NCBI RefSeq assembly: GCF_016125955.1 | Contig: NZ_JADEVE010000388.1 | Location: 62,001-126,000, forward strand | DNA: 64,000 nucleotides | Direction: 5' to 3' | Source: Acetomicrobium sp. S15 = DSM 107314 | Lineage (GTDB): Bacteria > Synergistota > Synergistia > Synergistales > Thermosynergistaceae | Shown here: piece by piece, positions 9,529-39,960 of the stretch | Layout: every line of letters starts with the position of its first letter | Numbering within the stretch: the stretch's first letter is position 1 | Position numbers and translations under genes: made by a program | Notes under the pieces: generated by a model | What the model was told of the DNA's origin: nothing | Database searches by the model: none | Seen by the model: the letters and a program-made list of their open reading frames with translations, nothing else

Positions 9529-9598
9529 TGACAAACCTCCAATCAAGAGGCATTTTAGAGCAAGCGCCGTTATCTTACAATATGTGGGAGGAGAGACT

Positions 9599-17676: not shown

Positions 17677-17688
17677 GGCCGTCTCCTC

Positions 17689-18231: not shown

Positions 18232-19931
18232 CGCAGCAACCTCCACACTGCATCGACTATCTCTTCATCAGGCAAAGCTCCCTCGGGAGGCTCACAGGCC
18301 CTGTTGAGCTGGCAAAGCCTGCCTTCCGTGTTTGTATAAGTGCCGGAGCGTTCAAACCATGGAGGAGAAGGGAAGATCACGTCAGCCCTCTCTGCGATCT
18401 CATTTACGTAGCTTGACTGGATTATCAAGTTTTTTGCTTTCCTTGACTCCTCTTCGACTTCGCAGGACGCGACATCGTCGGCGATCAGAAGGTATAGGGC
18501 CTCTCTGGTCGAGCTTTCGCTCAGTGGCTTTATGCCGGCTTTCTCCAGGCCGCGGCTGTTAGCTCCCGCAGCTAAACCTATTTGTTTGATCTTATTTTTA
18601 AGGCTATGCAGGTATTTCACCACAGTTGGATGCGTCGCAGGCCCCCATACGAAGACCGGCCTTTCGCTTTTCACGATGAGTTTTTCAAGGTTTGCCACGT
18701 CGTCTTCTGCGAGGATTTTGGCGGCCTTTTTGTCGACCCTTTTGCCGGTGCTTCCCAACACTGCCACCTTGGCGCCCCTGTTGGCGGCGCGTTTGACAAA
18801 GGAACTGACTACATTAAATTCTTCGTCTAAGTCGGTTCCCGCTATGAATATCCAGTCACCTTCTTCGATATCGGAGAGTTTCCCATTGCCCGCTGTCGTC
18901 TTGTAAGGTGTCGTGGAATGTGCGTTTTTGTCGAATAACTTTTTAAAAGAGAAGGCCGCCTCGTTTGTGGCTCGAGGGGATATAATTCCGGTGGTTGCGG
19001 AAGGACCACCGACGCTTATTATTACCTCGGCCGCCAGGTTCAGCGCCTCCTCCCAGGGAACCTCAACGAGAGAACTGCCGCGCCTCGCCATAGGGCTTTT
19101 TATGCGCTTCCTCGTCTCGTATAGCGGCTCAAACCTCCCGGCGACGCAGAGTATGCCTCGGTTAGGTTCGGCCTCCCAATCTCCTTCTATCCTCACAGGG
19201 AGGTCCTCCCTTGTTAGGATATCTATGCCGCACCCTACGCTGCAAAATGTACATGTGCTCTTAGTGCGGTCGAAGTGGATCTCCCTCCCTAAATAGGCGC
19301 TCTTTTTGTCCACCAGTGCCCCTGTTGGGCAGACCTGGAGGCATGTCCCGCAGGAGACGCACGTGGATTCGCCGAAGGGGTAATCCAAATCTGCGCACAC
19401 CAGCGTCTTTGGCCCTCTGTCTTTTAAGCCCAAAACGCCGTGTCCGGCCAATTCATCGCAGGCCCTTACGCATCTCCTGCAGAGGATGCACCTGTTCTGA
19501 TCGAAGAGGAAATATTTGCGGGTCGCATCTACGGGTAGCTTTGGCCAGGAGTAGTCGTATCGCACGTGATCCATGCCATACCTATAGGCGAGGTTTTGCA
19601 GCTCACAGTCGCCGCTTGTCTCGCAGAACATGCAGAAGTGGTTCTTTTCAGAGAAGAGCAGCTCCAAGTTGGCCCGCCTCAGAATGGTGAGCTTTTCGTT
19701 TTCCGTGGTGACTTCCATGCCATTCCTCGCCTCTGTGGTGCAGGCCGGAACAAACCCCCTCTCTCCTTTCGCCTCAACGAGGCACATGCGGCATAGCCCT
19801 CTCTCCGTGAGGCCCTCGAAGTGGCAGAGCGTGGGAACGTCTATGCCGTTCCTCTCGCATATCTCGAGGATCGTGTCCCCTTGTTCCCCTTTGACCTCTT
19901 TGCCATCTATGACGAGCGTTATTATGGCCAT
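18228..19931 (-). CDS. HydA/NuoG-like Fe-S subunit of hydrogenase operon 1
   Basis: This is an electron-wiring subunit of 567 aa related to NuoG and to HydA without an H-cluster. In order there is an N-terminal [2Fe-2S] domain (CHFEG, CRMC, ACTT), a His-Cys [4Fe-4S] segment (HFCMFCETSGDC), two [4Fe-4S] ferredoxin motifs (CILCRRCVRAC and CVSCGTCLQVC) and an N7-type Cys set (CTFCSVGC...C) that starts a degenerate molybdopterin-oxidoreductase-like domain. It is about 125 residues shorter than its counterpart in operon 2, the difference lying in the C-terminal domain. ATG at 19931 has AAGGAG eight bases upstream. Confidence 0.93.
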   Translation of the reverse strand: MAIITLVIDGKEVKGEQGDTILEICERNGIDVPTLCHFEGLTERGLCRMCLVEAKGERGFVPACTTEARNGMEVTTENEKLTILRRANLELLFSEKNHFCMFCETSGDCELQNLAYRYGMDHVRYDYSWPKLPVDATRKYFLFDQNRCILCRRCVRACDELAGHGVLGLKDRGPKTLVCADLDYPFGESTCVSCGTCLQVCPTGALVDKKSAYLGREIHFDRTKSTCTFCSVGCGIDILTREDLPVRIEGDWEAEPNRGILCVAGRFEPLYETRKRIKSPMARRGSSLVEVPWEEALNLAAEVIISVGGPSATTGIISPRATNEAAFSFKKLFDKNAHSTTPYKTTAGNGKLSDIEEGDWIFIAGTDLDEEFNVVSSFVKRAANRGAKVAVLGSTGKRVDKKAAKILAEDDVANLEKLIVKSERPVFVWGPATHPTVVKYLHSLKNKIKQIGLAAGANSRGLEKAGIKPLSESSTREALYLLIADDVASCEVEEESRKAKNLIIQSSYVNEIAERADVIFPSPPWFERSGTYTNTEGRLCQLNRACEPPEGALPDEEIVDAVWRLLR

Positions 19932-19944
19932 TTCAAGCACTCCT

Positions 19945-22900
19945 TTACTCTCTTGTCTCTAAATCGCAGCGCAAACACCTACGCGCCTCCCTGTGAGCCA
20001 CTTCGGGGGTGGGGTAGCCCAAATCTACCTCCCTGAAGTCACAGACCCTGACCTCTGGAGCCAATATGTTGGTCTTGCCCCTCGGTCTTTCGGCGTCCTC
20101 CTCGCTCAGTTCGTAACGCTCTGGTTCAGGCCGATCCAAGAACTGCGCCGGCTCTAAGAGGTCCATGCCTCTCAAATATCTGTGGATGGCCTTGGAGACC
20201 TTGTTGCCTTGGGATACGGCCTCCACCACGCTGGCAGGGCCTATCACCGCGTCTCCTATGGCAAACACTCCTTCTCGGGAGGTGAGGAAAGTCCGCCTTT
20301 GGACGGATATTGTGCCGTCTCTATTCTGGTTTATCCCCTCCTCGCGAAGGAGTGGCATGTTGATGGTTTGTCCCACCGCTGGAACTATTATGTCTACATG
20401 CAAAGTGAAGTAGCTTCCCTCCACCGGGACCGGGCGTTTGCGGGCGGACGAATCGAACTCGGCTTTACCGTGGGCATCGGTGAGGCTCAAGCGCTGGCAC
20501 TTGAGCCCTGTGACCTTTCCCTCTGCTCCCATGATCTCTGTGGGAGCGGCCAAGAAATGAAACTTGGCCCTCTCTTCCTCCGCGCTGATCATTCGCCTCC
20601 TCCATCGCCTGGTGGCGAGATGGAAATGGATTCCCTCTTCCTCTGCTGCCTCTATTTCCTCCGTCAGAGCTGGCATATCCCTGCGTTCGCGCCTGTAGAC
20701 CACGTGAACTTCTGCTGCGCCTAGCCTGAGGAGCGAGCGGGCTGCGTCCATTGCCACGTTTCCTCCGCCTACGACTGCCACCCGTTTGCCTTTGACGAAG
20801 CTCATGTCTTCGCCGGAGTTCAAGCGCCGCAGGAGTTCAACCCCGTGCATGACGCCCTCGAGCTCCTCGCCTGGGATGTCGAGCCTGTGGCTTCCTTGAG
20901 CGCCTATGGCCAAGAGCACAGCGGCGTGTTCTTTCAGCAAGCCGCTCAGCGTCACATCTCTTCCGAGTGCGGTATTCGTTTTTACCTCTACCTTGCCTAC
21001 GCGCAGGATGGAGCCTATTTCATTGTCCAGGACAGATTTGGGCAGGCGATAGTCCGGTATGCCATACCTCATCATACCTCCCAACCTTGGAAGCGCCTCG
21101 TATATAGTGCATCTGTAACCGAGTTGGGCGAGCCTTAAAGCGGCAGTTAGCCCTCCTGGCCCTCCTCCGATTATCGCTACGCTTTCGCTTTTGTCAGACT
21201 CGAGCTGCTCGGGCGTCCAGGGAGCGCTTTCGTGGTCTGCCATGAAGCGTTTGAGGTCCCTTACGGCTACGGGATCATCTACCTCGCCCCTCCTGCATTT
21301 GTCCTCGCAGAAAGCAGGGCAGACCCTGCCGCATACCGACGGGAACGGGTTAGACTGCCGGTGAACTGCTAAGGCCTCGTCATACTTCCCATCAGCTATG
21401 AGAGAAAGATACTCTGGGATATTTACCTCGGCTGGACAACCGCTGCGGCACGGCGATGGGGCAAGAGCTGTACAGGCACCAGCCGGACAACGCTTGTCTG
21501 TTATGTGCGCCTCGAACTCATCCCTGAAGTATCTGAGAGCGGTGAGCACTGGATTTGGCGTGCCTTGCCCGAGGGCGCAGAGAGATCCTTCTTTCATCAC
21601 GCCCGCTATATCCTCGATCACCGCGAGGTCCTCGGCTTTTCCAGCACCTTGGGTGAGGCGGGTGAGGATCTCGAGGAGCTTTTGTCCCCCGACTCTACAC
21701 GGAGGGCACTGGCCGCATGATTCTGCTACGGCGAACTGCAGAAAGAATCTGGCCAGTTCCACCATGCACGTATTTTCATCCACAACTATCATGCCGCCTG
21801 AGCCCATGAGTGCCCCGGCTGCCGTGAGGGAATCGAAGTCAACAGGTAGATTGAGCATCTGAACGGGAATGCAGCCGCCCAAGGGGCCACCGGTCTGAAC
21901 AGCCTTGAACTTGCGGTCTTTGGCTATTCCGCCGCCTATGTCAAAGATTATGTTTCCCAGAGGTGTGCCCATGGGGATCTCCACGAGGCCGGTGTTTTTC
22001 ACCTTGCCAGTTAATGCAAATACCGCTGTGCCTGGGCTCCTGGTGGCTCCTATGCTGGAAAACCAATCCGCCCCGTTTAGGACGATCTGAGGCACAGATG
22101 CGTAGCTCTTTACGTTGTTTATATTTGTCGGTTTTCCCCAGAGGCCGCTGTTTGCCGGGAAAGGTGGCCTAGGCCTGGGCTCGCCTCGCCTACCCTCGAT
22201 TGAGGCTATAAGGGCCGTCTCCTCTCCGCAGACGAAGGCCCCCGCCCCCTCTTTCAGCTTTATCCTAAAGCTATAATTTGTCCCTAAGATGTCATCGCCG
22301 AGGAGGCCGTATTCTTCAGCCTGGGCTATGGCTATCTTGAGCCGTCTTATGGCGAGCGGATACTCAGCGCGACAGTAGACATATCCCTCGTTGGCTCCTA
22401 TAGCATAGCCGGCGATGAGCATCCCTTCGATAAGAGAGTGGGGGTCACCCTCTAAGAGACTTCTGTCCATAAATGCCCCTGGGTCGCCCTCATCGGCGTT
22501 GCAGATAATATATTTAGGCCCACCGTGAGCTTTTCGGGTTAAACTCCACTTCAATCCCGTCGGGAATCCTGCTCCTCCTCGACCCCGTAGGCCCGACCTT
22601 TTGACCTCTTCTATGACTCCGTCCGGCGTCATGGAAAGGAGCGCTTTGGCTAGCGCCTGATAGCCGTCGCAAGCTATATATTCCTCTATGTTTTCGGGGT
22701 CTATGAAGCCGCAATTCCTCAGTATTATGCGGTGCTGTCGATTGTAAAACGGAAGGTCCTTGTAATAGACAATTTTTTGCATCAGCTCTGGGCTCGTATA
22801 GAGCAGTCTTTCTACCAGGCACCCCTTATAGAGGTGTTCTTCGACAATCTCGTGCACGTCCAGGGGTGACACGTTGCAATAATAAACGCCTTCGGGATAG

Positions 22901-23079
22901 ATCACGACGTTGGGTCCTCTCTCGCACATGCCATGGCAGCCAGTTTCCACCAGCATCACTTCGTCCTCTAAACGCTTATCAGCGAGTTCCTTGCGGAAAG
23001 CTTCGAGGATCTCGACTGAGCCGCCTGCGGTACATCCTGTACCGCGACATACCAATACATGGGCACGATATAATGGCAT
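19945..23079 (-). CDS. HydB(NuoF)-NfnB/GltD fusion flavoprotein of hydrogenase operon 1
   Basis: This is one continuous frame of 1044 aa. Residues 1 to about 539 match HydB of operon 2: a thioredoxin-like [2Fe-2S] domain ([11 protein letters not shown]...CHGMC), the FMN/NADH domain ([29 protein letters not shown]), SLBB and the [4Fe-4S] motif [12 protein letters not shown]. At KRCPAGAC, where operon 2 HydB continues into a 2x[4Fe-4S] ferredoxin domain, this protein switches to an NfnB/GltD-like module. That module has an N-terminal Cys-rich Fe-S part ([28 protein letters not shown]), the FAD loop [13 protein letters not shown], a second Rossmann loop [11 protein letters not shown] with [11 protein letters not shown] (NADPH-type) and a terminal RRCLRCD. 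It probably adds an NADP(H) site to the hydrogenase; Stn- and Nfn-type transhydrogenases are the closest known concept. ATG at 23079 is preferred to GTG at 23085. Confidence 0.93.
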
Positions 23080-23385
23080 CGTCACTTACCCTCCCTCGGT
23101 CTATTCTACTTAGCAATTTACTGCAATACAGTTATGGCCCAATCTTTTGACTCTAACGTGCAATGTGTTCAAGGGAAGATTATGGATGTTTTTAGCTAAG
23201 TGAGGTTAAAAATGACTAAATTGTGCGTATCGCGTACGCTACATATTGCATATGATTATGATATGGGTTAAAAGTTCGGGTGGTAACTATGTGATCGCGA
23301 AATTTAGGTATGCTATTAAGCCGATGGTGAATCTTTGGGCCGCTCTCGTCTCCGTTGTTTTTAAACCCGTCGGACCCAGGGTGCT
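23080..23385. other. AT-rich 300-bp gap inside hydrogenase operon 1
   Basis: No convincing gene is visible between hydC1 and hydB1. In operon 2 the same position holds an HATPase gene and an HndB-like [2Fe-2S] gene, so this may be what is left after their loss. It contains the inverted repeat GCGTA-TCGCG-TACGC at 23225-23239. An internal promoter for hydB1 is possible, but no good -35/-10 pair was found. Confidence 0.4.
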
Positions 23386-23868
23386 TCATTCGAGCATATC
23401 GATCATCCTGATCATCTTCTCAGGAGTCAACCTGCCCACCACTTTACCATCTATCATGGCTACGGGGGATAGGCCGCACGATCCCAGACAGTAGACTATT
23501 TCGTAGGTCACTTTCAAATCTTCTGTGGTCTCTCCAGGTTTTATGCCGAGTTTTTCCTGGGTAGAGCGCTTTATCCTCGCGGCTCCCCTCACATGACAGG
23601 CGGTTCCGTCGCATTGCTGGATGAGGTGTCTTCCTCTCGGCGTCAGGTGAAACTGCGCATAAAAGGTGGCGACGCCGAAGACATGACTATAGGAGAGGGA
23701 AAGCTTATCTGCTATTGCCTCGAGCAGCGGTTTGGGCAGGTAACCGTAGTGCTCTTGAGCTCTTTGCAAGATCGGTATTAACCCTAAACCCTCGGCCTTG
23801 ACACTCTCGATGATCTCGTCAAGCGGTTTAAAATCCAACTCTTCATCTCTCTGAATTATCTTCGGCAT
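23386..23868 (-). CDS. HydC/NuoE-like [2Fe-2S] subunit of hydrogenase operon 1
   Basis: This thioredoxin-like subunit of 160 aa binds one [2Fe-2S] cluster. The ligands are in CDGTACHVRG and CLGSCGLSP (C-x4-C and C-x3-C), with FATFYAQFHLTPRG-type spacing typical of NuoE. It shuttles electrons next to the HydB flavin. It is the first gene of operon 1. GGAGGAGGAG lies just before the ATG, and a clear promoter is about 45 bp upstream. Confidence 0.93.
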   Translation of the reverse strand: MPKIIQRDEELDFKPLDEIIESVKAEGLGLIPILQRAQEHYGYLPKPLLEAIADKLSLSYSHVFGVATFYAQFHLTPRGRHLIQQCDGTACHVRGAARIKRSTQEKLGIKPGETTEDLKVTYEIVYCLGSCGLSPVAMIDGKVVGRLTPEKMIRMIDMLE

Positions 23869-23886: not shown

Positions 23887-23904
23887 ATGAGATTTATATC
23901 ACAT
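23887..23904. promoter_or_regulatory. Rex-like inverted repeat at the operon 1 transcription start
   Basis: ATGTGA-TATAAA-TCTCAT (minus strand) resembles the Rex consensus TTGTGA-N6-TCACAA in 9 of 12 positions. It sits just downstream of the -10 box, where a repressor would block initiation. A related site lies before operon 2. Confidence 0.35.
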
Positions 23905-28715: not shown

Positions 28716-28744
28716 TTGACAGGTTCGTCCAAGTTCGTTACTGT
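28716..28744 (+). promoter_or_regulatory. Probable promoter of the regulatory/hydrogenase gene run
   Basis: TTGACA (28716-28721) and TACTGT (28739-28744) are 17 bp apart. Downstream, 28781-28808 contains an imperfect inverted repeat beginning TTATGCATTGTGATG and ending TTACATAA, possibly an operator. Confidence 0.5.
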
Positions 28745-28845
28745 AGTTACAAAGTTTGCAAATTGGGCATCAGCAGGTAATTATGCATTGTGATGTAGTG
28801 TTACATAAGTTGGTATTAACTTGCTGCGCCTGAGGAGGTTTTTGG

Positions 28846-29211
28846 GTGAACCTAAGAAATGTGAGGAACATCTTAGATGCGGAGATTTTATGGGGCGAAG
28901 AGCTTTTAGATGAAGTGGAGGTGGAATATGCATTTGCCTCCGACTTAATGAGTGACGTGCTGGCCTTTGCCACTCCTGGGTCGTTATTGCTCACCGGGCT
29001 TACCAATGTCCAGATCGTCAGAACGGCCAGCATGATGGATATGCCGGGGGTGGTCTTCGTCAGAGGAAAATGTCCGGGCACCGAAGCCCTCTCTCTCGCA
29101 AAAAATATGAAGATTCCCTTGCTGCTTTCATGCAAGAGCATGTTCGAATCCTGTGGCCTGCTTTATGTAGCCGGCGTTCTTCCTTGCAAAATTCTCCAAA
29201 GGCGGTCTTAA
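28846..29211 (+). CDS. DRTGG-domain protein 1
   Basis: This 121-aa protein matches the DRTGG domain, a small domain of unknown biochemical role found next to [FeFe]-hydrogenase gene sets and in some phosphotransacetylases. It starts with GTG, seven bases after GGAGG. Recognisable features are the N-terminal VRNILDAEIL, a central DVLAF...GSLLLTGL stretch and the hydrophobic strand IPLLLSC. It opens the five-gene regulatory module; a paralogue is encoded at 30966-31301. Confidence 0.8.
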   Translation: MNLRNVRNILDAEILWGEELLDEVEVEYAFASDLMSDVLAFATPGSLLLTGLTNVQIVRTASMMDMPGVVFVRGKCPGTEALSLAKNMKIPLLLSCKSMFESCGLLYVAGVLPCKILQRRS

Positions 29212-29230
29212 TATTTTGGGTGAGCCCATT

Positions 29231-29641
29231 ATGTTGGAGTTCGAGGTTAAACCGCTGGATTTCTTGGCTGCGGGTGAGGCTGCTGAGCGCGTAAAAGAGA
29301 CGCTCAAAACCTTAGGATTGCCTTCCAGCATTTGCAGGAGGGCTGCTGTGGTAGCGTACGAAGTGGAGATGAACCTGGTGATACACGGAGGCGGTGGGCA
29401 CATGGTTCTCAAGGTCGAGGAAGGCCAAATAACCATAATTGCCGTCGATAAAGGGCCCGGAATACCAGATCTATCGCTCGCGATGCAAGAAGGGTATTCT
29501 ACAGCTCCAGATTACATCAGAGAGATGGGTTTTGGAGCTGGGATGGGCTTGTCAAACATCAAGCGCAACTCCGACGAGCTTGAAATAGAGACGGAGGTAG
29601 GCAAGGGGACTAAATTAGTATCTATTATCTACATAAAGTAA
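29231..29641 (+). CDS. Anti-sigma-factor-type ATPase (RsbW/SpoIIAB-like HATPase)
   Basis: This is a GHKL-fold ATPase of about 136 aa. The N box is EVEMNLVIHGGGG, the G1 box is DKGPGIPD and the G2 box is FGAGMGLSNIKRNSDE. Such proteins act as anti-sigma or partner-switch Ser kinases. ATG at 29231 is chosen because GGGTGAG lies just upstream; TTG at 29216 is an alternative. No antagonist STAS gene is adjacent, so its partner is unknown. Confidence 0.82.
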   Translation: MLEFEVKPLDFLAAGEAAERVKETLKTLGLPSSICRRAAVVAYEVEMNLVIHGGGGHMVLKVEEGQITIIAVDKGPGIPDLSLAMQEGYSTAPDYIREMGFGAGMGLSNIKRNSDELEIETEVGKGTKLVSIIYIK

Positions 29642-29658
29642 TAGAGAGGTGATAGTTT

Positions 29659-30969
29659 TTGGCCCATGGAATAAGGGTTTTGGAAGATTCATGCCGCGGT
29701 TGCGTAAACTGCATAAAATCGTGCCCTACCGAAGCGATGAGGGTGATACACGGAAGAGCTCATATCATCGAGGAGTTGTGCATAGCTTGCGGAGAATGCC
29801 TGCGCAACTGTCGTCATCGTGCGCTGCAATTAGCTGAGGATCCATGGGAGGGCATATTTAATAATAAAGACACGGTCGCGTTGATGGTCGATCCGAGTTT
29901 ATGTACTCAGTTTTTGTGGCCCCCCAACACAGATTTTCTCATAGGTCCTTTGAGAGACATAGGGTTAGAACCTATCTCTGGAGTAAACTCCGAAGCTTTC
30001 GATTTGGCGGCGCTTGCGGTATCTCGCGCTATCGAATCTGCAGATTCAAAGGACATGCCCTTGATATCCACATATTGCCCGGCAGTTGTTCGTCTTGTTC
30101 AGATTCGTTTTCCCGAACTATTGAAACATCTCGTCCCAGTTGAGTCGCCGCTGGAGTTTGGAATAGATTTGTGGCGAATTCGAACCCAGCAAAAGGAATC
30201 GGTAGTCTTGGCCGCTTCATGCCCTGCCAGGATAGCCATGGTGCACGATCCGGTCGGCCGCGAAGTCAGTTCGGCGGAGTGGGCCGTTTCTGTAGCTCGG
30301 TTGGCCAAGGAGATAAGAAGCCGTGGTTATGCCAAAGCCGAAATCAAGGCTCCGGCAGAGGGGGAGCGCTGGGTCCAGTGGGGTATGCTCGGCGGGGAGA
30401 CGCTTCACGTAGCATCTTTTATGAATCGTGACTTGAATGCCATTGCCGTATCTGGGATAAGAAACGTCTTCGATCTTCTTCAGGAGGTCGAATTGGGATT
30501 GCATGCGGAGGTCGAGTTTGTAGAGGCGCGGATCTGCGACACCGGTTGCATAGGTGGAATAGGCAACGCCGAATCGCGTTTCCTGAGCCAGCGCAAAATT
30601 AGGTCACAGAAAGTCCGATGGGACAAGACTGCCAGTGAAATTGAGGTGCTGGAGAAGTTGTATCGGGCGCGGATCTGGGAGCTGCAGAGGACAATAGAGC
30701 CGATCAACCGCTTGCCCTTGGGTGAAGAAATTTCTCAAGCCATGGAAAAGTTGAAGGAGATGAACGCCGTTTATGCGGAGTTGCCGCACATCGACTGTGG
30801 CGCTTGCGGGCGTCCTTCCTGTAGAGCCATGGCCGAGGATATCATTCGCGGTCGAGGCGAAGTGGAAGATTGTATATTTAAGCTCAGGAAGCGAATCTCT
30901 GGATTGGCGGAGGAGCTGCTTCTCTTGTCACGCAGGCTCGTGCACACCGTGGTGGAGGATAAACATTGA
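29659..30969 (+). CDS. [FeFe]-hydrogenase-like Fe-S sensor protein
   Basis: The protein has 436 aa. It has two N-terminal [4Fe-4S] motifs (CRGCVNCIKSC and CIACGECLRNC), then a domain related to the H-cluster domain of [FeFe] hydrogenases, and a C-terminal [4Fe-4S] motif CGACGRPSC...C. The H-cluster motifs are degenerate: STYCPAVV (L1), AASCPARIAM (L2) and ARICDTGCIGG (L3). All four cluster Cys remain, but the proton-relay Cys of TSCCP is Tyr and the L2 Lys is Arg. This suggests a regulatory, non-catalytic protein akin to the HfsB/HydS sensory group, though without visible PAS or phosphatase domains. TTG at 29659 has GAGGTGA six bases upstream. Confidence 0.85.
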   Translation: MAHGIRVLEDSCRGCVNCIKSCPTEAMRVIHGRAHIIEELCIACGECLRNCRHRALQLAEDPWEGIFNNKDTVALMVDPSLCTQFLWPPNTDFLIGPLRDIGLEPISGVNSEAFDLAALAVSRAIESADSKDMPLISTYCPAVVRLVQIRFPELLKHLVPVESPLEFGIDLWRIRTQQKESVVLAASCPARIAMVHDPVGREVSSAEWAVSVARLAKEIRSRGYAKAEIKAPAEGERWVQWGMLGGETLHVASFMNRDLNAIAVSGIRNVFDLLQEVELGLHAEVEFVEARICDTGCIGGIGNAESRFLSQRKIRSQKVRWDKTASEIEVLEKLYRARIWELQRTIEPINRLPLGEEISQAMEKLKEMNAVYAELPHIDCGACGRPSCRAMAEDIIRGRGEVEDCIFKLRKRISGLAEELLLLSRRLVHTVVEDKH

Positions 30970-31301
30970 AAATATCGGAAGTCTTTCGTAGCCTTGACCT
31001 CGAAATTCACGTCGAAGGGGATTTGGGAAGAGCGTTATCCGGGGGGGTAGTGGGAGACCTTCTGAGTTTTGTGATGAAGGTCGCCGGAGAGGGGAACATA
31101 TGGATCACAGTACAAAACCACGTTAACGTAGCCGCCGTGGCCGTCTTGAAAGAGATCCCCTTTATCCTGTTAGCTTCTGGTCGCGTGCCTTCGCCTGAGC
31201 TGGTGGATAGGTGTCGCCAAGAGGGGATAACGTTGGCCGCGTCAGCCCTGGATGCCTACCCTTTGTGCGGAAAACTCTACGAGCTCGGGCTTAAAGATTG
31301 A
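30966..31301 (+). CDS. DRTGG-domain protein 2
   Basis: The protein has 111 aa and is a second DRTGG-type protein, similar in plan to the one at 28.8 kb (LSGGVVGDLLSFV, then NIWITVQNHVNVAAVA). The start is TTG, overlapping the preceding stop as TTGA. Tight coupling to the [FeFe]-like gene suggests they act together. Confidence 0.78.
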   Translation: MKISEVFRSLDLEIHVEGDLGRALSGGVVGDLLSFVMKVAGEGNIWITVQNHVNVAAVAVLKEIPFILLASGRVPSPELVDRCRQEGITLAASALDAYPLCGKLYELGLKD

Positions 31302-31305
31302 CCAG

Positions 31306-32076
31306 ATGCATCCCTTATGGGCAGATCTTCATATTCATACTGTACTTTCGCCCTGTGCTGAGCTTGAAATGGGTGCGCCCGATATAATTGAGCGTTGTCG
31401 GCAGGAAGAAATAGATCTTATAGCCATAACCGATCACAATTCGGCGAGGAATGCTAAGGCCCTCATTGAGGCTGGAAAGTTGGCAGGCATAACAGTGCTT
31501 CCGGGTGTGGAGGTGCAGTCGAGGGAAGACATCCACGTGGTCTGCATTTTTCCTGAAATCGAAAAGGCTCTCTCTTTTGGGGAATGGGCGTGGGGTTTAC
31601 TCCCCAGAATTCCGAACAGGCCTGATATCTTTGGGATGCAGTTAGTTATAGACGCGCAAAACAACATTATAGATGAAGTAGAAATTCTGCTGGTTCAAGG
31701 TATAGAAGCTGCAGTCGATGAGATCATCCGCAAAGGACATTCGATGGGAGGGTTGGTGATTTTACCTCATCTCGATCGCCCTTCTTTTTCTTATACTGCG
31801 GTGTTGGGCATCCTACCCGAGGATATAGAGGCGGACGCTCTGGAGCTGTCGTGCCGTTTGAGCGAAGGGGAGGCGGAGGCTTGGAAGAAAAAACTTCCGA
31901 ATCTTCCCATAATTAGGTCTTCTGACGCACATCGCCTCTGCGACATAAAAAGGAAGTGCGCAACGCCGATATTGGCGGATGCGCCGACGTTCGACGAGTT
32001 GTGTTTGGCTCTAAACGGAGAGAGGGGGCGTGCTGTGTTATGGCCTTGGGTCCTTGACATTGATTTGAGAATATGA
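31306..32076 (+). CDS. PHP-domain metal-dependent phosphoesterase
   Basis: This PHP-family protein has about 256 aa. The metal-binding motifs are ADLHIHTVLSPC, AITDHNS, GVEVQSREDIHVVC and SSDAH near the C-terminus. Substrates for stand-alone PHP proteins are mostly unknown (small phosphoesters or nucleotides). ATG at 31306 begins 4 nt after the DRTGG stop. It closes the regulatory module, as in several hydrogenase loci of Firmicutes and Thermotogae. Confidence 0.85.
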   Translation: MHPLWADLHIHTVLSPCAELEMGAPDIIERCRQEEIDLIAITDHNSARNAKALIEAGKLAGITVLPGVEVQSREDIHVVCIFPEIEKALSFGEWAWGLLPRIPNRPDIFGMQLVIDAQNNIIDEVEILLVQGIEAAVDEIIRKGHSMGGLVILPHLDRPSFSYTAVLGILPEDIEADALELSCRLSEGEAEAWKKKLPNLPIIRSSDAHRLCDIKRKCATPILADAPTFDELCLALNGERGRAVLWPWVLDIDLRI

Positions 32077-32088
32077 TATCAATCACAA
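32071..32088. promoter_or_regulatory. Rex-like inverted repeat before hydrogenase operon 2
   Basis: ATATGA-TATCAA-TCACAA matches one half of the Rex consensus TTGTGA-N6-TCACAA perfectly and the other in 4 of 6 positions. It overlaps the PHP stop codon, about 70 bp before hydC2. Confidence 0.35.
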
Positions 32089-32152: not shown

Positions 32153-32638
32153 GTGAAAATCGTGGCCCCGATAGTAAAGGAAGCGGATGTGGCGGAGCGG
32201 ACCAGGAAGATTATAGCCCCCTGGAAGGGGAGCAAAGGGGGAATAATCCCAATCCTCCAGGAGCTACAGAAGGAGTTCGGCTATCTGCCGAAAGAGGCGC
32301 TGGACGTTATGTCGCGAGAGCTCAAAGTTCCGAAGGCTGAACTTTATGGCATAGCGACATTTTACGCACAGTTTCATTTAACGCCGAGAGGGCGCCATGT
32401 CGTGAGGGTGTGCAGAGGCACCGCTTGTCATGTGCGTGGCAGTCTTAAAATTTTAGAGCGGGTTAAGGAAATATTGGGCGTCGATGAAAATGAGACTACT
32501 AAAGACCTGCGCTTCACATTAGAACCTGTAGCCTGTTTGGGAGCGTGTGGACTGGCCCCAGTTATGATGGTCGACGATGAGACCCATGGACGCATGACCC
32601 CGGACAAAGTGAGTGCCGTGCTCGACAGATATCAGTAG
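32153..32638 (+). CDS. hydC: HydC, NuoE-like [2Fe-2S] subunit of the bifurcating hydrogenase
   Basis: This thioredoxin-like [2Fe-2S] protein has 161 aa. The ligands are in CRGTACHVRG and CLGACGLAP. It is clearly paralogous to the hydC gene of operon 1 (IATFYAQFHLTPRGRH is shared in nearly the same form). The start is GTG at 32153 or 32162; AAGGA lies just upstream of both. It is the first structural gene of operon 2. Confidence 0.93.
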   Translation: MKIVAPIVKEADVAERTRKIIAPWKGSKGGIIPILQELQKEFGYLPKEALDVMSRELKVPKAELYGIATFYAQFHLTPRGRHVVRVCRGTACHVRGSLKILERVKEILGVDENETTKDLRFTLEPVACLGACGLAPVMMVDDETHGRMTPDKVSAVLDRYQ

Positions 32639-32657: not shown

Positions 32658-33242
32658 ATGTTGGAGGATCTTTCGCACAGCATCCTGGATATCGCCGAAA
32701 ACGCCGTAAATGCTGAAGCTACGAAGATCGTCATTGAAATTGCGGAGAAGCTCGATGAAAACAAAATCACGTTGACAGTTTCGGATAACGGGAAGGGAAT
32801 GGACGAAGATCTGCTGAGCAGGGTCTCTGACCCCTTCGTCACGAGCCGAAAGACGAGACGCGTAGGTTTGGGCATTCCCTTTTTAAGGCAGGCAGCCGAA
32901 GGATGTGGCGGCTTCTTTGAGATTCGTTCATCGCCTGGCAAGGGCACATCTGTGATGGCCTCTTTCTGCACGGACCACATAGATTGTCCACCTATGGGTG
33001 ATTTGGCAGCTACGCTGATAACGCTGTTGTTGGGCTGGCCAGACAAGCGATGGATCTTTCGTTACAAGATAAATGGTAGGCAATTTGAGTTAGATTCCGA
33101 TGAGATTGTGAAGGTGCTCGGGGATAGAGAAAGCCTTCATTCGTGCGAAGTGGCTGCGTGGCTCAAGGGTTGGATTGATGAAAATTTATCAATACTTCGT
33201 TTAGGAGGAAGTGATCAGTATGCCCAAGATAAGAAATCTTGA
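32658..33242 (+). CDS. HATPase-domain protein in hydrogenase operon 2
   Basis: This GHKL ATPase domain resembles sensor histidine kinases: N box DIAENAVNAEAT, G1 box DNGKGMDEDLL, then DPFVTSRKTRRVGLGIPFLRQAAEGCGG. No dimerisation/phosphoacceptor His domain or sensor domain is visible, so it is not a complete kinase. Such genes are repeatedly found between hydC and hydB in hydrogenase loci, with unknown role. ATG at 32658 is likely (194 aa). The 3' end overlaps the next gene by 23 bp. Confidence 0.8.
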   Translation: MLEDLSHSILDIAENAVNAEATKIVIEIAEKLDENKITLTVSDNGKGMDEDLLSRVSDPFVTSRKTRRVGLGIPFLRQAAEGCGGFFEIRSSPGKGTSVMASFCTDHIDCPPMGDLAATLITLLLGWPDKRWIFRYKINGRQFELDSDEIVKVLGDRESLHSCEVAAWLKGWIDENLSILRLGGSDQYAQDKKS

Positions 33243-33591
33243 AGATCTGCGCAAGGTAAAAGAGAGCGCAAAAGATCTGACGGCAGCGCGATCCGGCGGC
33301 AGAACTCACATCATCGTAGGTATGGGCACTTGCGGCATCGCTGCCGGGGCCCGCGAGGTTATGACCGCTATATTGGCTGAGCTAGAGAAGAGAGGAATAA
33401 AAGATGTGGCGGTGGAGACCACTGGCTGTATAGGCATGTGCCAGTTTGAGCCGTTGGTAGATGTAATCCGACCTGGAGAGCCGCGCATCACTTATGGCAA
33501 CGTATCGCCTGAAGATGTGCCGCGTATCGTAGCGGAGCATCTCATAAACGGCAATGTGGTTGCTGATAAGGTTATAGGGAGAACTGACTGA
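33220..33591 (+). CDS. HndB-like [2Fe-2S] thioredoxin-fold protein
   Basis: This 123-aa protein has ligands in GMGTCGIAAGA and TGCIGMCQFEP, a thioredoxin-like [2Fe-2S] arrangement. It corresponds to HndB of HndABCD hydrogenases and to the N-terminal domain of NuoF-type HydB. ATG at 33220 has AGGAGG upstream. It is absent from operon 1. Confidence 0.88.
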   Translation: MPKIRNLEDLRKVKESAKDLTAARSGGRTHIIVGMGTCGIAAGAREVMTAILAELEKRGIKDVAVETTGCIGMCQFEPLVDVIRPGEPRITYGNVSPEDVPRIVAEHLINGNVVADKVIGRTD

Positions 33592-33606: not shown

Positions 33607-35400
33607 ATGCCTATATATCGAGCTCATGTATTAGTCTGCGGCGGAACTGGCTGCACTGCGAGCGGTTCGGGCGAGGTCTTCAAAGCCTTTCGCGAGGAAC
33701 TCGCAAAAAAAGGTCTCGACAAAGAGATCATGTTGGTGGAGACCGGTTGCCATGGCATGTGCGAGATGGGGCCGATCGTCGTAGTTTATCCTGAAGGGGC
33801 GTTTTACTGCGGCGTGACTCCCAAGGATGTGCCTGAGATAGTGGAAGAGCATCTCTATAAAGGGCGTCTGGTCAAAAGGCTCCTCTATACCATGCCGGAG
33901 GAGATGCTCAAGGTTCCGCACTATAAAGACATCCCGTTTTACAAGAAGCAGCATCGTATAGTGTTGCGCAACTGCGGTTTCATAGACCCCGATCGCATAG
34001 AAGAATATATTTCTCGCGATGGGTATCAAGCGCTCGCTAAAGTCCTTACCTCCATGAAGCCAGAAGAGGTTATAGAAGAGGTAAAAAAATCGGGCCTTCG
34101 TGGCCGTGGCGGTGCTGGATTCCCAACGGGTCTAAAGTGGGAGTTCGCCCACAAGGCGAGAGGGGATAAGAAATATATCATCTGCAACGCCGACGAGGGT
34201 GACCCTGGGGCGTTTATGGACAGATCAATCTTAGAGGGTGACCCACACTCCGTCATAGAGGGGATGCTGATAGGCGCATACGCCATCGGTTCTGACGAGG
34301 GTTACATCTATTGCCGGGCTGAATATCCCTTAGCGATAAAGCGCCTAAAGACAGCTATAGCCCAAGCAGAGGAATACGGCCTGCTCGGCGATGACATAAT
34401 GGGCTCCGGTTTTTCGTTTCACCTTCACATAAAAGAGGGCGCAGGGGCTTTCGTATGCGGAGAAGAGACAGCCCTTATGGCATCGATCGAAGGAAGGCGA
34501 GGCATGCCGAGACCCAGGCCGCCGTTTCCGGCCAACAGCGGTCTGTGGGGCAAACCTACGAACATAAACAACGTGGAGACCTGGGCCAATGTGCCGCCCA
34601 TTATATTAAATGGCAGCGATTGGTATGCAGCGTTGGGCACGGCGAAGTCTAAGGGCACGAAGGTGTTTGCTCTCACGGGCAAGGTGAAACACACCGGGCT
34701 CATCGAAGTGCCTATGGGGATCACCATGAGGGAGATCATCTTCGAACTCGGCGGCGGCATTCTCGGAGACAGGGGCTTCAAGGCTGTGCAGATAGGCGGT
34801 CCATCGGGCGGATGTCTGAGCGAGCAGCACTTAGACTTATCGGTAGATTATGAATCGCTCACCGGAGCCGGGGCTATCATGGGTTCGGGCGGACTGGTGG
34901 TCATGGACGAAGACACGTGCATGGTGGACGTCGCCAAATTCTTCCTCGAATTCACTCAGCGCGAGTCATGTGGCAAGTGCGGCCCGTGTCGCGAAGGTAC
35001 AAAGCAGATGCTGCTCATGCTCAATGCGATAACTAAGGGCGAGGGCACCTTGGAGGATCTGGACAAACTCGAAAAGCTCGCCCAGATGGTCAAAGAGATG
35101 TCTCTCTGCGGTCTTGGTCAGACGGCTCCAAACCCCGTTTTGACCACACTTCGCTATTTCAGACACGAATATGAGGCGCACATCCTCGAGAAGCGTTGCC
35201 CGGCCAAAGCCTGCGTCGCGCTCATCCGCTACACGATAAACCCGGAGCGTTGTCGGAAGTGCGGAATATGCGCCCGCAATTGCCCGGTCGGGTGTATAAG
35301 CGGTGACCGCAACACTCCTTACGTTATAGATCAAGATCGCTGCATCAAGTGTGGCACGTGCATCGAAGTGTGCCCGTTCCACGCTGTTGAGAAGATTTAG
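33607..35400 (+). CDS. hydB: HydB, NuoF-like flavin subunit of the bifurcating hydrogenase
   Basis: This 597-aa FMN protein is the site of NAD(H) reaction and probably of bifurcation. In order: an N-terminal [2Fe-2S] domain (VLVCGGTGCTASG...CHGMC), the FMN/NADH region ([28 protein letters not shown]), SLBB, [4Fe-4S] (SCGKCGPCREG) and, from about residue 540, a ferredoxin domain with CRKCGICARNC and CIKCGTCIEVC. The C-terminal ferredoxin domain is what operon 1 HydB has exchanged for an oxidoreductase module. Confidence 0.95.
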   Translation: MPIYRAHVLVCGGTGCTASGSGEVFKAFREELAKKGLDKEIMLVETGCHGMCEMGPIVVVYPEGAFYCGVTPKDVPEIVEEHLYKGRLVKRLLYTMPEEMLKVPHYKDIPFYKKQHRIVLRNCGFIDPDRIEEYISRDGYQALAKVLTSMKPEEVIEEVKKSGLRGRGGAGFPTGLKWEFAHKARGDKKYIICNADEGDPGAFMDRSILEGDPHSVIEGMLIGAYAIGSDEGYIYCRAEYPLAIKRLKTAIAQAEEYGLLGDDIMGSGFSFHLHIKEGAGAFVCGEETALMASIEGRRGMPRPRPPFPANSGLWGKPTNINNVETWANVPPIILNGSDWYAALGTAKSKGTKVFALTGKVKHTGLIEVPMGITMREIIFELGGGILGDRGFKAVQIGGPSGGCLSEQHLDLSVDYESLTGAGAIMGSGGLVVMDEDTCMVDVAKFFLEFTQRESCGKCGPCREGTKQMLLMLNAITKGEGTLEDLDKLEKLAQMVKEMSLCGLGQTAPNPVLTTLRYFRHEYEAHILEKRCPAKACVALIRYTINPERCRKCGICARNCPVGCISGDRNTPYVIDQDRCIKCGTCIEVCPFHAVEKI

Positions 35401-35421: not shown

Positions 35422-37506
35422 ATGAAAGAGATTACCCTTACCATAGATGGAAAGACGTGCAAGGGGGAGCTCGGAGACACCGTGCTTCAGGTCGCCCGCA
35501 AAAACGATGTCTACATTCCGACGCTTTGCTTTCTCGAAGGTCTCTCTCCGATAGGCTCTTGTCGTATGTGCGTCGTAGAGACAGAAGGGAGCAACAAGCT
35601 CCTCACCTCATGTACCACTCCTGCGCAGGATGGCATGGCCATAATCACAAAGAGTCCGAAGTTGCATGACTACAGGCGTCAGATCCTGGAGCTTCTCTTT
35701 GCCGATAGAAACCATTTCTGCATGTATTGTTCACAGAGCGGCGACTGCGAACTCCAAAAGCTGGCGATAGAGCACGGTATGGATTCGGTCCGTTTCCCTT
35801 ATCTGTACTCCAAGTTCGACGTCGATACGACGAATGAAGACATAATGATGGACCACAACCGCTGCATACTCTGCCTTCGTTGTATAAGGGTCTGCTCTGA
35901 AAAGGTCGGTGCCCACGCTCTGGACCTTGAGAAGCGCGGATGGCAGGCGAAAGTCGTTTCCGACCTAGGCCAAAAGTTGGGTGAAAGCGAGAGCTGCGTA
36001 GAGTGCGGCGCCTGCGCTCAAGTCTGCCCTACGGGCACTATAACGATAAGAGACTTCGTCTATAGAGGGCGAAGGAATGAATGCGATGCGGTTGTGGAAA
36101 GCATTTGCCCCTTGTGCTCAGTCGGATGCCAAATTAAGGCTTACGTCCGCACCGGAAGCGTAGTGCGGGTAGAAGGATCAAATCTCGAGGGACCCGATGG
36201 CGGCCAGCTTTGCTATCAGGGCCGTTGGTGGCTCCCGGAAGCCACTGAGAGAGAGCGAATATTGACCCCCCTTGTACGCCGTGGAGCTGAATATGTCGAA
36301 GCCAGTTGGGAAGAGGCCCTCAATCTGATCTCTGCAAAACTTGGAGAAGCCCAGAAAAGCGGCAGGGCAGGAGCGCTTCTTTCGAGCCTCTGCACAGACG
36401 AAGAACTCACGCTGTTTTCTGCCTTTTTCAGAAACGCGCTCGGCATAGATAATGTGGACGCCTTTGATGGCGACGTCATGAGGGGTTTCATCAAAGGTTT
36501 TGCTCCTTTCCGCGAGCAGGGCATCTGTCCATTCACCGCAGCCAAGAATATCCTGAACAGCGATTTAATAATGATGCTCTCCGCTGACCCGCAGAGAGAG
36601 GCGCCGGTTGTTGCGAGCTACATCCGCGTGGCGACCCTACATAATGGTGCTTATCTGGTGAACGCATCCTCATACCTCGATCCCTTCCCAGGCATTACGG
36701 ATCTGAGCGTCCGTCTGCCGGAAAACGATGAAGGCCTACGCGCTATCGAGCTTTTGGCTCAAGCTGTGGCGGCGCTGGCGCAGTCAACCGCGCGTGGGGA
36801 GGAGAAGGAATACGAAGCGAGTGAAGACCTGCTGTCTTCGTACAGGGAAGCGCTGGACAGTGCCGCTTCTGCCTTCGATGTGGACAAAAAAAGCTTGGAA
36901 GAGCTCATCATGAAGCTCTCTCAGGCCAAACGTCCAGTTTTCGTCCTTGGCAAAAATTTGACCAAAAACCACAGGATGGTCACGGCGGCTGCCAACTTGG
37001 CCATAGCGTCTCAGGCGTTCTTCGATGACGGGTTGGGCGTTGTGCCCCTCTTGTTCGGCGGCAATGCACTTGGAGCGATAAACACAATCGTGAGCGAAGA
37101 GGCATGGCTTGGCAAGAAAGATCTGGATTTTCTGTATGTGTTCTCTACAGGTATGATACCGGAGGACGCCGCATCACTGGCCGCCATATCGAGCACAAAG
37201 TTTGTGGCTGTTCAAGTTCCGTATATGGTGCGCCCTCTGGTCAACTTGGCCGACGTCATACTGCCGGCGCCGGCGTGGTACGAGCGCAGTGGGCACTTCT
37301 GCACTATAGAGGGAGAGACGCGCAGGCTCAATGTCATAGTTCCGCCGCCTGCCGAAATGCGCCCGTTGTCTTACGTGCTCGATGGGATGGCGAAAAATCT
37401 CGGCGTGACGATAGGCAAGGCACAAGTGCCTCCTTGCGAGGCAATCTTCGCTCAAAAGGTGCCATCGGCGAAGGCGCGGATGGTTCTGCTTCAGGAGGTG
37501 TATTAG
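35422..37506 (+). CDS. hydA: HydA, NuoG-like Fe-S subunit of the bifurcating [NiFe] hydrogenase
   Basis: This 694-aa subunit carries a [2Fe-2S] domain (CFLEG, CRMC, SCTT), a His-Cys [4Fe-4S] segment (HFCMYCSQSGDC), two [4Fe-4S] motifs (CILCLRCIRVC and CVECGACAQVC), an N7-type set (CPLCSVGC...C) and a degenerate molybdopterin-oxidoreductase-like C-terminal domain. It has no H-cluster domain, in contrast with HydA of [FeFe] HydABC enzymes. It links HydBC to the HydSL pair. A GGAGGTAGGCG site precedes the ATG. Confidence 0.94.
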   Translation: MKEITLTIDGKTCKGELGDTVLQVARKNDVYIPTLCFLEGLSPIGSCRMCVVETEGSNKLLTSCTTPAQDGMAIITKSPKLHDYRRQILELLFADRNHFCMYCSQSGDCELQKLAIEHGMDSVRFPYLYSKFDVDTTNEDIMMDHNRCILCLRCIRVCSEKVGAHALDLEKRGWQAKVVSDLGQKLGESESCVECGACAQVCPTGTITIRDFVYRGRRNECDAVVESICPLCSVGCQIKAYVRTGSVVRVEGSNLEGPDGGQLCYQGRWWLPEATERERILTPLVRRGAEYVEASWEEALNLISAKLGEAQKSGRAGALLSSLCTDEELTLFSAFFRNALGIDNVDAFDGDVMRGFIKGFAPFREQGICPFTAAKNILNSDLIMMLSADPQREAPVVASYIRVATLHNGAYLVNASSYLDPFPGITDLSVRLPENDEGLRAIELLAQAVAALAQSTARGEEKEYEASEDLLSSYREALDSAASAFDVDKKSLEELIMKLSQAKRPVFVLGKNLTKNHRMVTAAANLAIASQAFFDDGLGVVPLLFGGNALGAINTIVSEEAWLGKKDLDFLYVFSTGMIPEDAASLAAISSTKFVAVQVPYMVRPLVNLADVILPAPAWYERSGHFCTIEGETRRLNVIVPPPAEMRPLSYVLDGMAKNLGVTIGKAQVPPCEAIFAQKVPSAKARMVLLQEVY

Positions 37507-37509
37507 GCG

Positions 37510-38049
37510 ATGGGGAAGGCAAAGATAGCAAGTGTATGGCTTGAGGCGTGTGCGGGTTGTCATATGTCGTTCCTCGACATAGATGAGCGAATTATAGGGC
37601 TCCTGGAGCGTGCCGAGCTCACCGCCACCCCTATAACAGATATAAAAGAGATCCCTCAGGTGGATGTCGGCGTCATCGAGGGTGCGCTGGGCAATGAAGA
37701 GGAGTTACATTTGGCCAAAGTAATGAGAGAGCGGTGCAAGATATTGGTTGCCTGGGGCGATTGTGCTGTCTTCGGTGGCATAAACTGCATGCGCAACTTT
37801 ACCACCCCTGAGTTGACGCTGAAGGAGGGCTATGTCAACACGGCCAGCACCGTCAATCCCGAAGGGGTGATTCCTCACGAGGATGTGCCCAAGTTGCTTC
37901 CTCAGGCGCTTCCCGTGGACAGAGCCGTAAAGGTTGACGTATATGTGCCCGGTTGTCCGCCTGATGCCGACACGATATATTACGTCTTCGCTGAATTGCT
38001 TGAAGGGCGCGTACCGAAAGTGCCCGTCGAAATGATGCGATATGATTAG
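37510..38049 (+). CDS. hydS: HydS, [NiFe]-hydrogenase small subunit
   Basis: This short small subunit of 179 aa has the proximal [4Fe-4S] ligands in EACAGCHMS, GDCAVFGG and PGCPPDAD. It begins 3 nt after hydA. It lacks a Tat signal and medial or distal clusters, as in HoxY-type cytosolic enzymes. Confidence 0.95.
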   Translation: MGKAKIASVWLEACAGCHMSFLDIDERIIGLLERAELTATPITDIKEIPQVDVGVIEGALGNEEELHLAKVMRERCKILVAWGDCAVFGGINCMRNFTTPELTLKEGYVNTASTVNPEGVIPHEDVPKLLPQALPVDRAVKVDVYVPGCPPDADTIYYVFAELLEGRVPKVPVEMMRYD

Positions 38050-38061
38050 GAGGAATGTCCC

Positions 38062-39483
38062 ATGAGCCGCAAGATAGAGATTAATCCTGTGACGCGCATC
38101 GAGGGGCACGGCAAGATAACGGTGCAGCTTGATGACAAAGGCCAGGTCAAAAATGCTCGCTTCCATGTCACGCAGTTCAGGGGGTTCGAGCTGTTCAGCC
38201 GTGAGCGGGATTTTCGTGAGATGCCTGTCATCACTCCCAGGATTTGTGGCATATGCCCAGTGAGCCATCACCTCGCCTCCGCTAAGGCCTGTGACGACAT
38301 ATTGGGCGTGGAAATCCCCAAAACGGCTAAAAATTTGAGAGAGCTCATGCATATGGGGCAGGTGGTTCAATCACACGCCTTGAGTTTCTTCCATCTGTCG
38401 AGCCCTGACCTACTCTTCGGCTTCGATGCCGATCCCGCGGTGAGAAATGTGGCGGGGTTAGTTGAGTCTTATCCTGAGCTGGCGAAAAAAGGCGTAGTCC
38501 TGCGCAAGTTCGGCCAAGAGATCATAAAGACGTTGGGGGGCAAAAAGATCCATCCCTGGCATAGCATACCGGGCGGCGTGAATCGCGGTTTAAAGCGGGA
38601 TGAGCGCGATGAGATCTTGGGGCAAATCCCACAGATGAAGGCTATTGCCAAAGAGGCCATCGCTTTGATCAAGGGCTACCTAAAAGAACACGCCGCTGAG
38701 GCCAAGAGCTTTGCTACCGTCAGCACTGCTTATATGGGGCTCGTGCGCGACGGCATGCTTGAGCTTTACGACGGAAACATCCGCATCCGCGGTCCTCGGG
38801 GAAGGGTTATAGACGAGTTTGCGTGCTCTGATTATCTGAGCTACATAGGCGAGCACGTGGAGCCGTGGAGTTACCTTAAGTTCCCCTATTACAAGCCCTT
38901 AGGTTTTCCACACGGTAGCTACCGTGTGGGGCCCCTTGGCAGGGTCAATGCGTGCGACGATATCTCCACGCCGGAAGCGTCCGCTGAGCTTTCGGTGTTC
39001 AGACAGGCTTCTGAAGACGGCATCGTGCCCCACACCCTCTATTACCATTACGCGCGCCTAATAGAGGCGCTTTACGGCCTTGAAAGGATAGAAGAGCTCT
39101 TGAATGATCCCGACACGCTCGGAAACGAGCTCAGGGTCAGCTCGAACGAAATCAGGCCCGAAGGGATAGGTGTAATAGAAGCCCCTCGAGGCACGCTCAT
39201 CCATCACTATTGGGTGGACGAGAAAGGTGCCATAACCAAGGTAAACTTGATAGTAGCGACCGGACACAACAATTACGCCATGAATAAGGGCGTGGAGCAG
39301 GTGGCTAAAGAACATATCAAAGGCGAAGACGTGGACGAAGGCGTATTGAATCGAATGGAACACGTCATACGATGCTACGATCCGTGTCTTTCCTGTTCCA
39401 CCCATGCCGTGGGTAAGATGCCCCTGCTCCTCGAGGTGCTATCCCACGACGGAGAGTGCTTGAGGAGGATCAGTAAAGAGTAG
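38062..39483 (+). CDS. hydL: HydL, [NiFe]-hydrogenase large subunit
   Basis: This 473-aa NiFe-site subunit has the N-terminal [10 protein letters not shown] and the C-terminal [10 protein letters not shown] motifs. A tail of about 26 residues after the His should be cleaved by the adjacent protease. The gene is preceded by AGGAGG. Together with hydC, hydB, hydA and hydS it reconstructs an HydABCSL enzyme as described for Acetomicrobium mobile, which couples H2 to NAD and ferredoxin. Confidence 0.96.
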   Translation: MSRKIEINPVTRIEGHGKITVQLDDKGQVKNARFHVTQFRGFELFSRERDFREMPVITPRICGICPVSHHLASAKACDDILGVEIPKTAKNLRELMHMGQVVQSHALSFFHLSSPDLLFGFDADPAVRNVAGLVESYPELAKKGVVLRKFGQEIIKTLGGKKIHPWHSIPGGVNRGLKRDERDEILGQIPQMKAIAKEAIALIKGYLKEHAAEAKSFATVSTAYMGLVRDGMLELYDGNIRIRGPRGRVIDEFACSDYLSYIGEHVEPWSYLKFPYYKPLGFPHGSYRVGPLGRVNACDDISTPEASAELSVFRQASEDGIVPHTLYYHYARLIEALYGLERIEELLNDPDTLGNELRVSSNEIRPEGIGVIEAPRGTLIHHYWVDEKGAITKVNLIVATGHNNYAMNKGVEQVAKEHIKGEDVDEGVLNRMEHVIRCYDPCLSCSTHAVGKMPLLLEVLSHDGECLRRISKE

Positions 39484-39489
39484 TCGATT

Positions 39490-39960
39490 ATGAAGGTTTT
39501 AGTGTTGGGTTATGGAAATCCGTATCGCGGAGATGATGGCGTAGGGCCTCTTTTGGCCGAGCGCATTGCTCAGTGGCTTGCTTCGCTCGGAGAAGCGGTG
39601 GAGCTGTGGGTTGGGCAGCAGCTCTTGCCGGAACTCGCAGAGGATCTCGCAAACCACGATGTAGTTGTGTTTTGCGATGCAAGCGCTGTGCCCTTGAAGG
39701 ACGGTTTTCTGTTGGAAGACATCTGTGTCTCCTCCGATCCGGAGGGACTGACGCTACATTCCGTCTCTCCCCAGTGGCTTTTGGGACTCGCTCAAAGCTT
39801 TGCAGGGCATGCGCCTAAGGCATACCTTTTGAGCGTGGAGGGCGACTCCTTTGATTTTAGCGAGGGACTGACCGCGCGATGCGAGGAGCGGGCAAAAGCA
39901 GCGCTGCAGTGTTTTCAGATTTGGTGGAAGAGTGGCAATGATAGCGCGGTTATGATATAA
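39490..39960 (+). CDS. Hydrogenase maturation endopeptidase (HoxW/HycI-like)
   Basis: This nickel-dependent protease trims the C-terminal tail of the hydrogenase large subunit. The N-terminal GYGNPYRGDDGVGP, the CDAS motif and LHSVSPQ give the expected Glu/Asp and His metal ligands. It has 156 aa. The gene begins 6 nt after hydL. The promoter for the 6S RNA overlaps its 3' end. Being the only such gene in the window, it may process both large subunits. Confidence 0.92.
   Translation: MKVLVLGYGNPYRGDDGVGPLLAERIAQWLASLGEAVELWVGQQLLPELAEDLANHDVVVFCDASAVPLKDGFLLEDICVSSDPEGLTLHSVSPQWLLGLAQSFAGHAPKAYLLSVEGDSFDFSEGLTARCEERAKAALQCFQIWWKSGNDSAVMI

Follow-up and report, generated by a model that had tools for sequence, protein, structure and literature searches.

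Groups C and D of the [FeFe] hydrogenases have been called H2 sensors mainly on account of gene position, slow turnover and, in group C, a PAS domain; no signal output is shown for either in the literature found. The 'putative sensory' HydS proteins of group D (M2e) carry a published Cx2Cx4Cx16C signature with a conserved glutamate and aspartate after it (PMC8163306, PMC13104023), and E252 of one of them, TamHydS of Thermoanaerobacter mathranii, is the proton-relay glutamate of the group (PMC11803613). The hydrogenase of Acetomicrobium mobile, for which flavin-based electron bifurcation is known, is a bifurcating NiFe-HydABCSL enzyme whose operon includes HisK and HydD, named as accessory (PMC8880783); the BfuABC family has been described as well (PMC9304861). 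Within a 64,000-nucleotide window of Acetomicrobium sp. S15 = DSM 107314 (contig NZ_JADEVE010000388.1, positions 62,001 to 126,000), five plus-strand genes at 28846-32076, encoding among others a group D HydS-like protein (FeH), lead into an operon of the NiFe-HydABCSL type. The locus is read here as a conserved signalling module on bifurcating hydrogenases, with a sensor devoid of the 2Fe half of the H-cluster, a scheme to which a probability of about 0.5 is given as a whole. Sensory hydrogenases of the group D kind are already known; what appears to be new is the H-cluster-less form of their module.

The five genes, which a sequence-only reading of the window had correctly described as tightly spaced and leading into the downstream operon (operon 2), encode DRTGG1, a stand-alone DRTGG-domain protein of 121 residues (28846-29211); a SpoIIAB/RsbW-like GHKL ATPase (29216-29641, starting at TTG 29216 or at the in-frame ATG 29231); FeH, with two N-terminal [4Fe-4S] motifs and an H-domain (29659-30969); DRTGG2, a second stand-alone DRTGG-domain protein of 111 residues, the start of which shares 4 bases with the 3' end of the FeH gene (30966-31301); and a PHP-family phosphoesterase (about 31306-32076), separated by 76 bases from HydC of operon 2. 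Pfam matches identify HATPase_c (2e-8), Fe_hyd_lg_C (1e-15), the C-terminal FeS region of FeH (6e-13) and PHP (1e-7). The DRTGG identity is weak in the window, where DRTGG1 scores 24.9 bits, just below the cut-off of 25.2, and DRTGG2 17.3 bits, but firm in relatives (matches in 19/20 for DRTGG1 and 10/14 for DRTGG2) and, for DRTGG1, firm by predicted fold, its AlphaFold2 model (predicted local distance difference test score, pLDDT, 95.5) having the DRTGG structure 2ioj as best PDB match. PDB sequence searches with DRTGG1 and with PHP gave no matches; the metal-binding residues of PHP (DxHxH, DH, E, H, DxH) are kept across related loci. No sites were returned when the module was scanned for sigma-70 promoters.

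Cofactor site of the hydrogenase-like protein

The AlphaFold2 model of FeH (mean pLDDT 91.1) matches [FeFe] hydrogenases in fold. Both N-terminal [4Fe-4S] motifs (C12/15/18/22 and C41/44/47/51) are invariant, as is the C-terminal signature C380/383/388/405, which has the spacing of group D HydS and is likewise followed by the conserved glutamate and aspartate. Phylogenetically, the Synergistota FeH proteins form one branch (100/99) beside Bacillota proteins from the same module, and the two together (100/98) lie apart from catalytic group A HydA. As TamHydS is absent from this tree, in which group D status was assigned to the Bacillota loci from their motifs and gene position, the basis of the group D label is the signature, the gene position and the published description. 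The 585-residue HydS-like proteins of four genomes (G025, G026, G109 and G122) were rejected as further members, falling outside the FeH/group D clade.

The four cysteines of the [4Fe-4S]H cubane (C140, C188, C293 and C297) are kept in 35/35 Synergistota FeH. The pocket for the 2Fe half is rewritten: at positions given CpI numbers from an alignment with catalytic HydA rather than from superposed coordinates, A230 is replaced by Asp, C299 by Tyr and M497 by Arg in all 35 proteins, P500 by Asp or Asn, and G501 by Leu, Ile, Met, Phe or Thr. Among 38 further group D proteins, Ala predominates at 230, Ala or Ser at 299 and Gly at 501, and the residues at 497 and 500 are mixed. FeH of the window has Tyr 299, Asp 230, Arg 358 and Thr 501, and so departs from the pocket formed by a small residue at 299, Ala 230, Lys 358 and the 501-502 glycine pair. 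The change K358R is found in 14/14 loci adjoining a NiFe-HydABCSL (NiFe-Bfu) operon, the window included; the remaining Synergistota FeH (21/21) have Lys.

The machinery that would fill this pocket is also missing. In the genome of the strain, a 99.87% complete draft of 438 contigs, FeH is the only Fe_hyd_lg_C protein, no catalytic [FeFe] hydrogenase being found elsewhere; HydG and HydE have no match, and HydF yields only weak matches at the level of general GTPases, far below the cut-off, as in 14/14 control genomes. HydE, HydF and HydG are likewise missing from every other sampled genome that has a NiFe-linked module. Judging by gene content, FeH would have no known route to its hydrogen-binding cofactor in its own genome. 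With the maturases absent and the 2Fe pocket altered, a role in sensing H2 by way of an [FeFe] site is not supported, and the protein most likely reads the redox state of the cell rather than H2 itself. On the same two grounds, FeH is classed as related to the group D HydS proteins rather than as an H-cluster-bearing member. The sequence-only reading had proposed a retained sensor of H2 or redox state; redox sensing survives as the best reading, H2 sensing does not, and the catalytic [FeFe] hydrogenase elsewhere in the genome that it had named as contrary evidence was not found.

A separate gap concerns near-complete Synergistota genomes (G126, G139, G173, G170, G116, G124 and G111) that carry a catalytic-type [FeFe] HydA together with HydE and HydF over cut-off, HydG remaining below it; this might reflect a HydG that has diverged, or maturation that proceeds without one.

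Distribution and gene order of the module

A search with the FeH alignment, covering one genome per species, returned 71 loci, spread over Synergistota, Bacillota, Armatimonadota and some unplaced bacteria. The order DRTGG1-ATPase-FeH-DRTGG2-PHP is unbroken in 57/57 loci with all genes in reach (27 from Synergistota, 30 from elsewhere), so the gene set is not a product of chance. In Bacillota, Armatimonadota and the Acetomicrobium/Thermovirga side of Synergistota, the genes next in line are HydC-HisK-HydD-HydB-HydA, with slight changes of that order in a few loci, and a HATPase-only gene (HisK) comes after HydC in most HydABC-linked relatives. Frequent adjacency to bifurcating HydABC is thus borne out, as the sequence-only reading had said; literature searches on DRTGG with hydrogenase and on TM1420-TM1423 yielded no description of the module. 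HydA proteins of bifurcating operons (L062-L104 and L106-L114) show the motif TSCSPGW, with Ser at the expected C300 cubane ligand, in 33/45 cases.

Presence of the module, called in 92 of 188 Synergistota genomes from a score list of full-length matches and fragments, was compared with that of two hydrogenase markers in tests that take no account of shared ancestry. HydG occurs in 37/92 genomes with the module and 45/96 without it (p = 0.38, no association), leaving 55/92 module-bearing genomes without HydG, while HydB-type flavoprotein occurs in 87/92 and 56/96, respectively (p = 2e-9). This pattern suggests that the module follows the bifurcating flavoprotein core rather than the catalytic metal. 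G173, which has neither HydG nor [NiFe] hydrogenase, was considered as a genome with the module and without any hydrogenase, and was rejected on finding a catalytic-type [FeFe] HydA; this comparison therefore does not separate the readings. In one genus (g17, G046-G088), HydG is present and the module absent in most members.

A proposed redox-signalling scheme and its alternatives

In the proposed scheme, FeH would descend from group D 'sensory' [FeFe] hydrogenases and persist as an all-[4Fe-4S] protein with up to four clusters, a sensor chemistry that is well supported. Its redox state would be set by ferredoxin or by the bifurcating enzyme, and its reduction or oxidation would alter its action on the adjoining SpoIIAB-like ATPase. 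This ATPase, probably a kinase, would be opposed by the PHP phosphoesterase, and between them these enzymes would determine in what state a target is held. The simplest candidates for that target are DRTGG1 and DRTGG2, which might otherwise be effectors, or HisK, the HATPase encoded in the hydrogenase operon; NiFe-HydABCSL would as a result be made in larger or smaller amounts, or be more or less active. Extended to the whole sensor lineage without the 2Fe half, and put forward slightly more tentatively than the scheme itself, the proposal is that of an iron-sulfur redox relay serving bifurcating enzymes of any catalytic metal, the signal being electron pressure (ferredoxin/NADH) and not H2.

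Several observations weigh against this scheme. In many other Synergistota the module stands alone, apart from HydABC, so position by itself does not tie it to HydABC control; the neighbours of such stand-alone modules are mixed, one subgroup having RadA-like and SPFH-like genes, in a clustering made unreliable by antisense open reading frames in GC-rich contigs. Synergistota that do possess HydEFG carry the same pocket changes in FeH, and loss of the 2Fe site there can therefore only be inferred. E247 of FeH, the probable counterpart of the relay residue E252 of TamHydS, is invariant in Synergistota, and a relay glutamate has no obvious use in a purely redox protein. None of the five module proteins has a recognised DNA-binding domain; no output is visible and no target shown. 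To these points are added the draft state of the genome and, for the co-occurrence tests, disregard of shared ancestry and the use of lists transcribed by hand.

One alternative, rather unlikely as it stands, is compatible with redox sensing by FeH and would narrow its output: Rex, responding to NADH/NAD+, would set transcription of both module and hydrogenase, and the module would act post-translationally only. Rex-like palindromes lie 5' of DRTGG1 in a number of Bacillota and Armatimonadota loci (12/12 positions in L096; 11/12 in L063, L067, L073 and L092), and a protein with a Rex-type DNA-binding domain is encoded; Rex may therefore set transcription while the module acts at the protein level. 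The tentative site upstream of the module in the window, TCGTTACTGTAGTTACAA (28735-28752, plus strand), is identical in sister locus L035 (97%), but matches at 10/12 positions, a score equalled by 5/100 shuffles, and many loci have no Rex-like site upstream of the module. Weak TTGTGA-N6-TCACAA matches also occur just upstream of HydC in operon 1 (23887-23904) and operon 2 (32071-32088), the window holding 30 such matches against 18.8 expected.

Less probable still is that the module assembles or maintains the bifurcating HydABC core, FeH acting as iron-sulfur scaffold or electron donor, for which the hydrogenase-like Nar1 proteins offer an analogy, and ATPase and PHP as chaperone or repair factors. 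Association of the module with HydB-type flavoprotein and not with the [FeFe] maturase HydG would fit such a role, as would an FeH that retains every cluster cysteine and not the 2Fe pocket; the authors of the A. mobile structure went no further than maturation and/or regulation for the neighbouring HisK/HydD/HydP (PMC8880783). A kinase-type ATPase joined to a phosphoesterase and to DRTGG domains, whose folds resemble the regulatory regions of CBS pyrophosphatase and HPr kinase in fold searches, nevertheless looks like signalling, and a second NiFe-Bfu operon of the window (operon 1; 16255-23868, minus strand) has no module beside it.

A classical anti-sigma partner switch, in which the RsbW-like ATPase would sequester a sigma factor under FeH control, is improbable, although the closest structural relatives of the ATPase are the SpoIIAB structures 1til and 1th8 (phmmer, about 1e-6) and its E-x3-N, DxGPGI and GxGxG boxes are at least 90% conserved across related loci. 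The protein scores 45 bits against the NCBIfam SpoIIAB cut-off of 135, and the genome contains no STAS-domain match, no SpoIIE phosphatase match and no SigBFG-class match above cut-off; for want of these partners the classical switch is not supported, and the sequence-only suggestion of an anti-sigma type switch falls in that form. Least probable is a true H2 sensor holding a complete H-cluster as TamHydS does, a possibility kept alive by group D relatives that, once matured, bind the H-cluster and show H2 turnover (PMC8163306) and by the four retained ligand cysteines and E247, but opposed by the lack of HydE, HydF and HydG in this and the other sampled NiFe-linked-module genomes, by five pocket positions changed in 35/35 proteins and by K358R in 14/14 NiFe-adjacent loci.

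A lineage in which sensor, kinase-like, DRTGG and phosphoesterase genes have all been kept without the H-cluster machinery provides a natural control for redox versus H2 sensing, and the ATPase and PHP proteins are a candidate kinase and phosphoesterase by which bifurcating hydrogenases may be controlled.

The adjoining [NiFe] operons and the closest known systems

The catalytic hydrogenase next to the module is [NiFe], in agreement with the sequence-only reading. By its gene set, operon 2 is a NiFe-HydABCSL operon of the BfuABC type, like that of A. mobile, and lies on the plus strand: HydC/BfuC (NuoE-like; 32153-32638; PF01257, 1.5e-52), a HATPase-only protein corresponding to HisK of the A. 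mobile operon (about 32658-33242; HATPase_c, 1e-17), a HydD-like [2Fe-2S] thioredoxin-fold protein (33211-33591; PF01257, 4e-5, just below cut-off), the NuoF-like flavoprotein HydB/BfuB (33607-35400; full-length Synergistota relatives 79-84% identical), the NuoG-like HydA/BfuA, which has a molybdopterin-type fold and neither an Fe_hyd domain nor an H-cluster (35422-37506), the [NiFe] small subunit (37510-38049; NCBIfam VhuG-like, 7.7e-46), the [NiFe] large subunit (38062-39483; VhuA-like, 1.6e-136) and a [NiFe] hydrogenase maturation protease (39490-39960; TIGR00072, 2.2e-20). HydB of operon 1 (19945-23085, minus strand; 1046 residues) has a fused C-terminal NADPH-dependent oxidoreductase-like domain, GltD/NfnB-like by eye, and forms of about 1050 residues occur in related genomes. 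A [NiFe] maturation gene that appears HypF-like by sequence lies near both operons (7204-9546, minus strand).

Among described systems, the SpoIIAB/RsbW anti-sigma kinases share with the module ATPase their GHKL family and ATP-binding boxes, the ATPase differing in its score below the family cut-off and in the lack of STAS, SpoIIE and SigBFG-class partners in the genome. The A. mobile NiFe-HydABCSL operon (PMC8880783; BfuABC family, PMC9304861) has the same subunits as operon 2, with HisK and HydD, and the accessible parts of its description do not mention the five-gene module, which precedes NiFe-HydABCSL operons in Acetomicrobium relatives such as A. hydrogeniformans (L054). The group C (M2f) HydS of Thermotoga maritima, a proposed regulator of the hydrogenase of the same operon, likewise combines a C-terminal cluster with a non-conserved C299, but possesses a PAS domain and a working H-cluster (PMC10055695), whereas FeH has neither PAS domain nor maturases. 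A further counterpart is TamHydS (PMC8163306, PMC13104023), which, like FeH, joins two N-terminal [4Fe-4S] motifs to an H-domain, carries Cx2Cx4Cx16C, has no PAS domain and is encoded upstream of a bifurcating HydABC, adjoining a histidine-kinase-like ATPase; FeH differs from it in having Tyr for Ala/Cys at 299, Asp 230, Arg 497 and Arg 358, in a genome without maturases, and in being linked to a catalytic unit of the [NiFe] type.

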